The position numbers and the translations under genes are program-made. Shown here one piece after another: positions 485 to 8,008 of a stretch of DNA of 25,305 bases (position 1 is the first letter of the stretch; each line of letters begins with the position of its first letter). The stretch lies in IMG/VR virus record IMGVR_UViG_3300033143_001149, positions 1 to 25,305 of that record; one strand, given 5' to 3'. This DNA comes from a virus. Under the pieces are notes generated by a model. The model was not told the DNA's origin. It saw only the letters and a program-made list of their open reading frames with translations, and did not search any database.

Positions 485-820
485 TCATGCTTTATTTTGT
501 CCTTCGACATTTCTTCTATTTCTATCAGCTGTTCTTGCGTACTGCCAATGTAGAGCTTCTTCAATCTTTGTAATAGTTAAAGCATTCTCCCTACATGGAA
601 ATGCTTCATTCAAACTCTGGAACAAACATTTAGTGTAGTTTAAAATATCTACTGCTTGTAATCCATTCACTCCAACCTCTCCGATGGGATCTGATTGTAC
701 TTTAAATGATACAATAGGAGCAACTCCTTTCTCATCTGCGATATTTTCTAATCCAATGAAGTCTATTACTTCTGGGTGTGTTTCTTTTAACTTTTCAAAT
801 GCTTTTTCTACGTGTCTCAT
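485..820 (-). CDS. Acb2/Tad1-hairpin-like phage protein, candidate cyclic-nucleotide sponge
   Basis: The 111-residue protein has two parts. Residues about 30-53 contain an APIVSFKVQSDPIGEVGVNG stretch that recurs in many phage hypothetical proteins. Residues about 56-100 form a helical hairpin with the segment CRENALTITKIEEALHW followed by an RTADRNRR-x-VEG tail. The pattern C/SRE-x-x-L-x-I-T-K-L/I-E-E-A-x-x-W matches what I recall of the Acb2/Tad1 hairpin domain. Members of that domain family bind cyclic nucleotide or NAD-derived signals and block CBASS or Thoeris immunity; the binding activity here is inference. It is the last gene of the leftward operon and ends 38 bases before the shared terminator. 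The start has a weak AGAAAG upstream. It could instead be a related hairpin protein of unknown function. Confidence 0.6.
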   Translation of the reverse strand: MRHVEKAFEKLKETHPEVIDFIGLENIADEKGVAPIVSFKVQSDPIGEVGVNGLQAVDILNYTKCLFQSLNEAFPCRENALTITKIEEALHWQYARTADRNRRNVEGQNKA

Positions 821-3920: not shown

Positions 3921-5915
3921 ATGATAGCGGCAAAGAAATACTCTCCAATAATATTTGATAAGAATCAGAAGGACTATAAGCAATTAAAGAAAAATACTTC
4001 TGAATACTTTTCCTTTTGGAAAGAACAGAAGAAAAGATTAAAGGAAGGATATAAACCTACTGGTGGTTCTTGGATTCCAGGAAACTATTATTTCTATTTA
4101 AACTTTTCTAAGATACATGGATTACCAAGTCCAGAATCAAGGCGTAAGTCTATGATTCCTCCAATATATCGTGACCAAGATCATGAGTATTATCAAGAAG
4201 TTCATCACGCTAAGTATGGAGATGGAAAGGATAACAAAGGTGGGTACGGTATTATAGTATTAAAAGCAAGACGTAAGGGGTTCTCCTTTATGAATGCTAA
4301 TATATTATTACATGAATGGACCTGCTATGCTCACTCAGAAAATGGGTTAGGTGCACAGCGTGAAGATTATGTTCAAGATTTTCGTAAGAAGATGTTATTG
4401 TCCTATAACGAATTACCTTCTGAATTGAGGAATAAGATTCTCAATAACAATGAGGAAATCTTTATGTCGGGATACAAAGAGAAGGAAGATGGTATTTGGG
4501 TAGAGAAAGGGATGAAGTCTATGGTTCACTTTAGGGTGATGGAGAAGCCTAATGCTTTCAGGGGAACATCTTTGAATTACATGGTATTCGAGGAAGCGGG
4601 AGAGTTTTTAAAGCTTAAGCGTTCATTCCAATCATCTGAGGATTGTTTTAAAGAGGGTAATGTATTTTTTGGTACACCAATTATCGGTGGAACTTCTAAT
4701 GCTATGGAGGTTGAGTCTGATGATTACATGGATATGTATTATAATGCTGAACAGTTTAATTTAAAGCCTGTATTTATTAAGGCATCTAAAGTGTTTGGTA
4801 GTTTCTTTGATATGTCTACGGGTGCATCTGATTCAAAAGGAGCAGAAGAGTTTATTATAGCTGAGGCTGAAAAGCGTAAATCTACTGGAGATTTACAATC
4901 ATATTACTCTTACTTACAAGAAAATCCTTTAGAGGTGGAGCATGCTTTCTTTAAATCAGGGAAGACTCCATTTGATTTAGAAAAGATTAATAAACAGATT
5001 GCCAATATCAATACTAATCCTAGTTTTCAGAGAGTTCAGAAAGGAACATTGGAATGGCCTAGAGATAAAGAGGGGAAAGAAATATTTGGTGCAACACCAG
5101 AGTTTATTTTAGATGATGGATCCCATGATGAGGTAAATCCTAACAATGAGTTGTTTCCATTTGAGATAGTTGAACAACCAATTCCTTCTATGGCTAATAT
5201 ACATTTAGCTGCGGTTGATCCTTATCATATTGATGATGAACTGGAGGAGATGAAGAAAAAGATGTCTGATCAGAAGGATAGGTCCGATGGTTCAATGTGT
5301 GTGTATCGTAGATTTGTTGGACAGAATACAATAGGTGAGTTACCTGTAGCGTTCTATACTGATAGACCTTATTCTAAGGAGAAGTTCTACGAGAACTGTT
5401 TAAAGTTGGCTGTGTTTTATGATTCTCAAATACTTGTGGAATATAATGATGATGGTTTCCTTAAATATTTTATAGCCAAGAAAATGACTAGATATTTAAA
5501 GGAAAGACCTCGTGCTGCTGATAGTCCTTGGAGTCAAGCGACAAACAGATATGGTATTCACATGAAGACTTTCCAAAAGAAATTATTGACTGAGCTTGTA
5601 GATGAATATGTTAAAAAGCATTGGGAAGATATTTACTTTTTAAAATTATTGAATGAATTATCCGTTTATGGAGTGAAAAATACAGATAGGGTTATGTCTT
5701 TTGGTATGGCTCTAATACATGATATGGATGCTACTAAAAGAATCTATGACAAAGACGAGGAGGAGAATATTGAGCCAATGGATGGATTGCCTGGGTTTAG
5801 TAGAAATAGTCAAGGTGGAATAGTAACTCTAAGTAGTAATAATAATAATCATTTTGAAACTAATAAAAGAAAGGTTACTTTTGATTACAAACTAGACGAA
5901 GATACTGAACTATAA
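3921..5915 (+). CDS. terL: Terminase large subunit (packaging ATPase and nuclease)
   Basis: TerL powers translocation of phage DNA into the procapsid and cuts it at the end of packaging. The 664-residue protein shows both domains. The ATPase has an atypical Walker A, KARRKGFS (115-122), like the K-A-R-x-K/R-G-F-S loop of crAss-like and related terminases. Its Walker B is YMVFEEAGE (220-228), with Glu in place of the usual Asp and the catalytic Glu at 225, and FFGTP (249-253) is the coupling motif. The RNase-H-like nuclease shows AAVDPY with Asp 433, LVEYND with Glu 507 and nearby Asp 510/511, and NTDRVMSFGMALIH with Asp 589. The C-terminus is Asn/Ser-rich. The length suits a full TerL and no break is seen. 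It starts 3 bases after the upstream gene, without a Shine-Dalgarno site, and precedes the portal by 6 bases. Confidence 0.92.
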   Translation: MIAAKKYSPIIFDKNQKDYKQLKKNTSEYFSFWKEQKKRLKEGYKPTGGSWIPGNYYFYLNFSKIHGLPSPESRRKSMIPPIYRDQDHEYYQEVHHAKYGDGKDNKGGYGIIVLKARRKGFSFMNANILLHEWTCYAHSENGLGAQREDYVQDFRKKMLLSYNELPSELRNKILNNNEEIFMSGYKEKEDGIWVEKGMKSMVHFRVMEKPNAFRGTSLNYMVFEEAGEFLKLKRSFQSSEDCFKEGNVFFGTPIIGGTSNAMEVESDDYMDMYYNAEQFNLKPVFIKASKVFGSFFDMSTGASDSKGAEEFIIAEAEKRKSTGDLQSYYSYLQENPLEVEHAFFKSGKTPFDLEKINKQIANINTNPSFQRVQKGTLEWPRDKEGKEIFGATPEFILDDGSHDEVNPNNELFPFEIVEQPIPSMANIHLAAVDPYHIDDELEEMKKKMSDQKDRSDGSMCVYRRFVGQNTIGELPVAFYTDRPYSKEKFYENCLKLAVFYDSQILVEYNDDGFLKYFIAKKMTRYLKERPRAADSPWSQATNRYGIHMKTFQKKLLTELVDEYVKKHWEDIYFLKLLNELSVYGVKNTDRVMSFGMALIHDMDATKRIYDKDEEENIEPMDGLPGFSRNSQGGIVTLSSNNNNHFETNKRKVTFDYKLDEDTEL

Positions 5916-5921
5916 ATACGT

Positions 5922-7013
5922 ATGGATTTTCCACAACAGAATGTTCCCAAGGGAATGAAAGATGAAGAGTGGCACTTAGAATGTGTTGACTCATTAATGC
6001 GCCATCATCAGGATTACAGCTCTTTTCTTGATTCAAGAAAGAAAGATCACGATAATTATTTAATCACACAAGGACAGTTTAATCATAAGGAGTACGAGTA
6101 TGTTACCGACACTTATGGATTAACCTCCCCTGCTAGATTAGTTAATTACCCTATCATATTGCCAAAGCTTGATTTATTGGCAGGAGAATTAATAAGTCAA
6201 CCATTACAATATACTGTTAATGTTATTAATCGTAATGCATTGCGTAAGAAGAATGAGGAAAAGATTACTCTAGCTGCAGAGGTAGTATTGAGGCCAATTC
6301 GTAGGCAGATTGAGCAAGCATTGGGAATGCCAATTCCTGACGAGAATGTTGGTCAAGAAGTACCGCCAGATGTTGAAAGGTATCAAAAACTAAAGTTTAG
6401 AAACGCCATTGAAGAGATGGTTCATGTTGGATTAACATTCTGTATTCAACGATGGGATTTAAAGCAAACCTTTAAAAGAGGTTTCTACGATTTAACTATT
6501 ACTGGTAAAGAATTTTATAAAATTTATATTAAGGAGGGAGATCCTTATGTTGAACGTCTTGACCCACGTTCAATGATATTTGATTTAGATATTGAGAAGG
6601 AAAGCTTACAAGATTCTAAATATGCTGGTCACGAAAATTGGTACACTGTCAATGAGATAATTGACCGATATGGCTATGACCTATCTAAGAAGCAAATTAC
6701 TGAGCTTGAAAAATTACAAAGTAAGGGTGTGGGTAGTGACGTATCTGGCACATTCTCTTTAGATAATTATTCTACTACATCAGCAACCGATTTAAAGATT
6801 AGAGTTGTTGAATTTCAGTGGAGAAGTATCAGGATGATGAAACATAAAGTTTCTAATAATGAATTTGATCCAGAGAATCCTTGGCTGAAAAAAGTGAAGG
6901 ATGATTATAAGGCAAAGAAGGGAGAAACTATTATTGATAAGCCTATAACTGAAATACGTCAAGCAGCAAGGATTGGTCCAATGGCAGCACTTTATCTGTT
7001 GTTGATTCATTAA
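5922..7013 (+). CDS. Portal protein, N-terminal part (broken by frameshift)
   Basis: The portal is the dodecameric ring at one capsid vertex through which DNA enters and leaves. This 363-codon frame holds a characteristic N-terminal region: NYPIILPKLDLLAGELI (about 75-91) followed by polar and charged helices, then GFYDLTITGKEFYKIYIKEG (about 187-206), an antiparallel stretch ending in VERLDPRSMIFD. The pattern fits portals of crAss-like and other Bacteroidota podoviruses as I recall them. Sense coding holds through RIGP (350-353); the remaining residues (MAALYLLLIH) are out of character and a TAA follows. The rest of the protein continues in the next frame from about 6980 to 8008. Joined, the two parts give about 695 residues, a normal portal length. 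Confidence 0.82.
   Translation: MDFPQQNVPKGMKDEEWHLECVDSLMRHHQDYSSFLDSRKKDHDNYLITQGQFNHKEYEYVTDTYGLTSPARLVNYPIILPKLDLLAGELISQPLQYTVNVINRNALRKKNEEKITLAAEVVLRPIRRQIEQALGMPIPDENVGQEVPPDVERYQKLKFRNAIEEMVHVGLTFCIQRWDLKQTFKRGFYDLTITGKEFYKIYIKEGDPYVERLDPRSMIFDLDIEKESLQDSKYAGHENWYTVNEIIDRYGYDLSKKQITELEKLQSKGVGSDVSGTFSLDNYSTTSATDLKIRVVEFQWRSIRMMKHKVSNNEFDPENPWLKKVKDDYKAKKGETIIDKPITEIRQAARIGPMAALYLLLIH
6977..7013 (+). other. Frame break inside the portal gene
   Basis: From 6980 the downstream frame reads N-G-S-T-L-S-V-V-D-S-L-K-N-V-Q, which runs without a stop into the second portal part. The upstream frame ends at 7013. Adding one A within CCAATGG (6978-6984) would give R-I-G-P-N-G-S-T and rejoin the frames. 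No classical slippery heptamer is present in the overlap. Confidence 0.7.
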
Positions 7014-7042
7014 AGAATGTCCAAATACTATACAATATTACG

Positions 7043-8008
7043 ATGTATCAGATTGAATTAGCTATGGCTCGTTCAGGTGGTAAATCAATTGTTTATGATG
7101 TATCTCAGAAGCCTAAGAATATGACGTTGAAAGATGTTATGTATCATGCGAAGAACAGTGGACTTATCTGTATCAACAATAAAGCTGAGGGTATGCAAAC
7201 CAATGGCTTTAACCAATTCCAACAAGTAGATTTTACTCTTAGTCAATCTGTTTCTCAGATGATTAACCTTAAGATGATGCTTGAAGATACAGCTGATAAA
7301 TTAACTGGAATATCTGCTAGTAGAGCAGGGGTTCAGAAATCAGGAGATTTGGTTGGTGTTACTGAGCGTAATGTGATGCAGTCTACTTTAGTTACTGCTC
7401 CATTGTTTGATATTCACTACCGATTGGTTGGTGATGTGCTACAAGGGTTAGCTAATCTAATGAAACCGGCTTGGGGTAAAGAAGGTCGTATGGCTAATAT
7501 CTTTGGTGATATGGGTATGCAGACTTTTAAGATTGATAAGAGTATTGCTTTATCTGAGTATGGTATATTCGTAGAGAATAGCGGTAAAGAGGTTCAGCGT
7601 AAGCAAGAGATGATGGGATTATTAGAAAGATTCTCATCTTCTGGAAATGTGGACCCATTAGCAATTATACAAGCTGTTAATGCAGAAGGATCAAGTGAAG
7701 TTGAGTCAATCTTAACTGAAGGACTTACTGCTATGAAAGAACAGTCTGCTTCAATGGAAGAGAGACAAGTTGCTGCTCAAGAAGAAGCGAATAGAATCAA
7801 TGAAGAGAAAACTACAATGCCTTTACAAGTTCAACAGCTTAAATCACAAACTGATATACAGCTTGCTGAAATGGAGCTTAGTGGTAAGTCACAACTTCAA
7901 AATAATGACTTGATTCATAAGGAGAATATGCAACAAGAAAGTAAGAATTCAAAATTAGATGAAATGATGTTATCTCAATCAGGTGATGATGAGGTCGCTG
8001 AAAGTTAA
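7043..8008 (+). CDS. Portal protein, C-terminal part
   Basis: The ATG at 7043 is probably internal. The same frame is open back to at least 6962, and residues just before it (SVVDSLKNVQILYNIT) look like native portal sequence. Visible features are YQIELAMARSGGKSIVYD at the start, then a segment with LICINNKAEG, a helix-rich crown/stem region (LKMMLEDTADKLTGISASRAG) and VQKSGDLVGVTERNV. The C-terminus (about residues 230-321) is a Gln/Glu/Met-rich coiled coil typical of the barrel and tail of long portals. Together with the preceding part it makes one essential virion protein. It ends 10 bases before the promoter-like box in front of the scaffold-like gene. Confidence 0.8.
   Translation: MYQIELAMARSGGKSIVYDVSQKPKNMTLKDVMYHAKNSGLICINNKAEGMQTNGFNQFQQVDFTLSQSVSQMINLKMMLEDTADKLTGISASRAGVQKSGDLVGVTERNVMQSTLVTAPLFDIHYRLVGDVLQGLANLMKPAWGKEGRMANIFGDMGMQTFKIDKSIALSEYGIFVENSGKEVQRKQEMMGLLERFSSSGNVDPLAIIQAVNAEGSSEVESILTEGLTAMKEQSASMEERQVAAQEEANRINEEKTTMPLQVQQLKSQTDIQLAEMELSGKSQLQNNDLIHKENMQQESKNSKLDEMMLSQSGDDEVAES

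Follow-up and report, generated by a model that had tools for sequence, protein, structure and literature searches.

Do crAss-like phages carry sponges for the nucleotide alarm signals of their hosts, and if so, to which sponge family do these belong? The window, by which we mean the whole stretch of viral DNA analysed (a fragment of 25,305 bases), raises this question at positions 485–820 of the minus strand, where an initial annotation had placed an "Acb2/Tad1-like" protein. Within the Acb2/Tad1 hairpin group, the encoded protein is a member of the Tad1 family. With a probability of about 0.88, we read it as a Tad1-family sponge that, by homology, would form a hexamer of dimers and bind nucleotide alarm signals without cutting them.

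A Tad1-family protein under purifying selection

The open reading frame at 485–820 (minus strand) is intact, starts with ATG and encodes 111 amino acids, which include exactly the three segments quoted in the initial annotation, APIVSFKVQSDPIGEVGVNG, CRENALTITKIEEALHW and RTADRNRR. The closest relative of the protein, 89% identical, is found in a related phage contig (L001). The two genes differ by 36 synonymous and 12 non-synonymous codon changes (dN 0.087, dS 1.15), and the low dN relative to dS means that the frame is under purifying selection and is no chance ORF: this is a real gene. Relatives of the protein are encoded in 202 stretches of viral contigs, and a scan of bacterial genomes with the patterns used yielded one relative only. 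Neither a search of NCBIfam with the protein nor a search of phage-isolate DNA at near-identity returned a match.

Which of the two sponges does this gene encode? All of the nearest characterised proteins are Tad1, and so only the Tad1 side of the original label stands. A single-sequence phmmer search of the PDB retrieves CmTad1 (8kbb, E 6.1e-12) and CbTad1 (7uav and 8kbe–8kbh, about 2e-5). A profile built from 30 relatives matches CmTad1 8kbb at 5.9e-17, CbTad1 at about 6e-12 and phiKZ gp184 at 1.1e-6, and matches nothing besides Tad1 proteins. Together with CmTad1, the nearest characterised homolog is the founding, functionally tested Tad1 of Bacillus phage SBSphiJ7 (OM982674, 142 aa), to which tblastn gives 42.7% identity over 81 aa and hhalign a probability of 99.1% (E 8e-19, 80 columns). 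The two proteins have in common the QxxPxxExGxNG motif, the CRENA turn, the TKxEEALxW stretch of helix 2, RTxxR and the VEG tail; SBSphiJ7 Tad1 differs by its longer N-terminal domain. Against the Acb2/Tad1 hairpin HMM (PF24729, Acb2_Tad1_hairpin), a check suggested in the initial annotation, the window protein does match (20 bits, E 7.8e-4), yet it stays under the curated cut-off of 27 bits, and this sub-threshold score counts against a Tad1 sponge. The same model matches 30 of 30 relatives at E < 0.01. In control searches, SBSphiJ7 Tad1 scored 34 bits, the T4 Acb2 Vs.4 scored 71 bits, and phiKZ gp184 gave no match; because gp184 is a published Tad1, the cut-off is a poor test for this family. 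The model lies closer to Acb2 and has little power to test for Tad1.

An AlphaFold model based on the alignment (pLDDT 92.2, pTM 0.82) contains helices at residues 3–14 and 16–21, strands at 22–25 and 36–39 and, with high confidence, the C-terminal hairpin that had been recognised from sequence, composed of helices 56–73 and 77–102 (515–655, minus strand), in which CREN follows the turn and helix 2 carries R96 and R100. This is the monomer fold of Tad1, an N-terminal beta part joined to a long two-helix hairpin, with the beta part reduced: only two strands of at least three residues are called, which counts against the Tad1-sponge reading. In a fold search, all 17 PDB matches with E < 0.1 are CmTad1 or CbTad1 (TM about 0.5–0.6) and none is an Acb2 structure. 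Named Acb2/Tad1 hairpin proteins are included among the fold matches in BFVD.

The block APIVSFKVQSDPIGEVGVNG had been regarded as an extra beyond minimal Acb2. It aligns with Tad1 proteins, including a segment of 20 residues in CmTad1, and forms the closing part of the usual Tad1 N-terminal domain; as it aligns with the Tad1 core, we rejected its interpretation as an added domain. According to the AlphaFold secondary structure, the N-terminal part (residues 3–43; 692–814, minus strand) is a shortened form of the Tad1 beta domain. Only 41 residues precede the conserved Gln, and the domain starts with a helix, a further point against the Tad1-sponge reading. The motif KVQSDPIGEVGVNG (residues 40–53; 662–703, minus strand) corresponds in alignments to QxGPIxExGxNG of CmTad1 and SBSphiJ7 Tad1, and the C-terminal tail R-x-VEG-x-N (residues 103–111; 488–514, minus strand) is conserved across the Tad1 family.

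Pocket residues and the hairpin turn

Is the ligand pocket retained? The family alignment comprises 137 distinct rows, 89 of which lie outside the clade of the window protein and serve as the distant set. Twenty positions are conserved in at least 85% of these 89 rows, and the window protein keeps 19 of them. R96 and R100 are conserved in 89/89 distant rows and N79 in 87/89; the pocket-aligned and tail residues kept in the window protein are N79, R96, R100, V105, E106 and G107. N79, R96 and R100 align with CbTad1 N92, R109 and R113, which are putative gcADPR contacts; F82 of CbTad1 is likewise a putative ligand contact. In the CbTad1 chain of 124 aa, positions 82, 92, 109 and 113 are occupied by F, N, R and R, an agreement that supports the numbering, short of proof.

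The aromatic residue found at the F82 position in the solved Tad1 proteins (Phe or Tyr) is replaced by Leu70 in the window protein, and this counts against the reading as a Tad1 sponge. Leu occupies the position in 26 of the 89 distant rows, so an aromatic residue there does not define the family. The turn is shorter as well: from this residue to the Asn of CREN we count 10 residues in the window protein and 11 in CmTad1, CbTad1, SBSphiJ7 Tad1 and phiKZ gp184. The combination of Leu with 10 residues occurs in 66 rows, the window protein and 65 relatives, in a sample biased by the queries. This Leu-type short turn appears to be a common subtype absent from the solved Tad1 proteins, a modest difference. 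A neat division of the family into a Leu-type and an aromatic-type clade finds no firm support: in a poorly resolved tree built on few columns the labels are clustered and, scored over these two types only, require four changes.

Could the altered turn signify an altered ligand? A Tad1 fold with a changed pocket might have lost gcADPR and bind another signal instead, such as a different cADPR isomer or cyclic oligonucleotides only. The Leu and the one-residue-shorter turn, present in the window protein and 65 relatives and at odds with the Phe or Tyr and longer turn of solved Tad1s, speak for such a change; nevertheless, the remaining pocket-aligned residues (N79, R96, R100) are kept, ten Phe-type members have the short turn too, and F82 itself is a putative ligand contact. 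We therefore consider this reading unlikely. Equally doubtful is its extension to the whole group, in which Leu-type short-turn Tad1s of crAss-like and other environmental phages would form a ligand-shifted branch for a non-gcADPR signal, suited to the defences that their hosts use.

The phage and its gene neighbourhood

The view that the window derives from a crAss-like phage is borne out by capsid, terminase and portal matches. Its capsid protein is similar to gp32, a capsid protein of the crAss-like phage phi-crAss001 (PDB 7qof, 1.2e-7), and terminase, portal and capsid all match head-and-packaging PHROG families strongly. Among 37 contigs with Tad1 relatives, the same terminase type is found in at least 14 and the capsid protein in at least 9, counts that are lower bounds because many contigs are fragments; many carriers of Tad1 relatives are crAss-like, too. 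In the window, the portal gene (5922–8008) is interrupted: two ORFs, which lie in different frames and meet near 7010, match successive portions of a single portal family, and four relatives have one open frame of 732–867 aa. Either the sequence was misassembled here or the gene is broken.

Is the sponge gene, as the initial annotation suggested, part of a counter-defence island that also includes DUF551 and membrane proteins? The DUF551 neighbour is real (883–1179, 47.6 bits), but DUF551 occurs in just one of the 37 contigs, and this one is not the nearest relative, L001. Even in L001 different genes surround tad1, and no neighbour recurs widely; when the ORFs of the close loci, over 50 in number, were clustered, each family was found alongside tad1 in 8 loci at most. 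We rejected the island for want of a recurring association, and tad1 in the window behaves as an independent accessory gene. Among the neighbours in L001 is a gene for a DnaJ-domain protein (3955–4656, 74 bits), two genes upstream of tad1. Two small membrane-protein-like ORFs lie at 1185–1834 of the window and have no significant family match; the larger has a distant match (32%) about 5 kb from tad1 in L022, L024, L025 and L027.

We deem it very unlikely that crAss-like phages have recruited the Tad1 fold to a structural or packaging function. phiKZ gp184 (PDB 8y6v chain I), which has the same C-terminal domain as the window protein, is annotated as a structural protein, and in two relatives (L006, L034) the gene directly adjoins that for the large terminase. 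Unlike the window protein, however, gp184 measures 230 aa and has a long N-terminal extension, and the position and neighbours of the gene vary among phages, as fits an accessory gene. Moreover, gp184 is a Tad1 reported to block CBASS and Thoeris, and the delivery of this protein into host cells by injection has been reported as an anti-defence role in its own right (PMC13282480).

Least probable of all is that the gene encodes Acb2, a cyclic-oligonucleotide sponge without a gcADPR site: Acb2 (T4 Vs.4, 7uq2; p26, 8h2j and 8ixz) is likewise a helical-hairpin signal sponge of the same Pfam family, whose name covers both proteins, and T4 Acb2/Vs.4 gives a short match in helix 2, but Vs.4 scores 71 bits on the Pfam model against 20 for the window protein, hhalign with Vs.4 yields a probability of 4.4% over 14 columns versus 99.1% over 80 with Tad1, and neither Vs.4 nor p26 is found among PDB sequence or fold matches, so that we rejected this identity. 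Acb2 has no beta domain (PMC12043709).

Proposed action and significance

Tad1 forms a hexamer of three dimers that has six pockets for gcADPR and cyclic dinucleotides and takes up cyclic trinucleotides at its trimer interfaces; in this way it blocks both Thoeris and CBASS (PMC12043709). As a Tad1-family sponge, the window protein would by homology assemble from dimers into a hexamer. It would tightly bind, without cutting it, the host-made alarm signal of Thoeris, glycocyclic ADP-ribose, and probably also signals of CBASS, namely cyclic trinucleotides, for example cA3, and some cyclic dinucleotides. The defence effector would then stay inactive, and the phage would replicate. We infer oligomeric state, ligand, target defence and action during infection from the characterised homologs. 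Carrying a gene of this kind can be costly in some hosts, since CbTad1 and another Tad1 trigger the Panoptes decoy system (PMC12657218).

How does the window protein relate to its described counterparts? CmTad1 (8kbb, 8kbc, 8kbd) and CbTad1 (7uav, 7uaw, 8smd, 8kbe–8kbh) are its best sequence and fold matches, at a moderate TM-score of about 0.6; they differ from it in the turn, as does SBSphiJ7 Tad1, and in the N-terminal part. A crAss-like phage protein annotated with this domain exists already: A0A345BP16 of crAssphage sp. isolate ctcc615 is named an 'Acb2/Tad1 hairpin domain-containing protein'. Its fold match to the window protein is weak (E 2.2), and it may represent a different branch.

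As a kind, the window gene is ordinary, with mild interest in its turn subtype and crAss-like setting, and it leaves the understanding of sponges unchanged. It does add a Tad1 sponge to the gene content of crAss-like phages, which are abundant and for which few counter-defence genes are known. It also highlights a common Leu-type Tad1 subtype without a solved structure, and with this Leu-type protein it would be practicable to ask whether the hairpin turn sets the specificity of the sponge.
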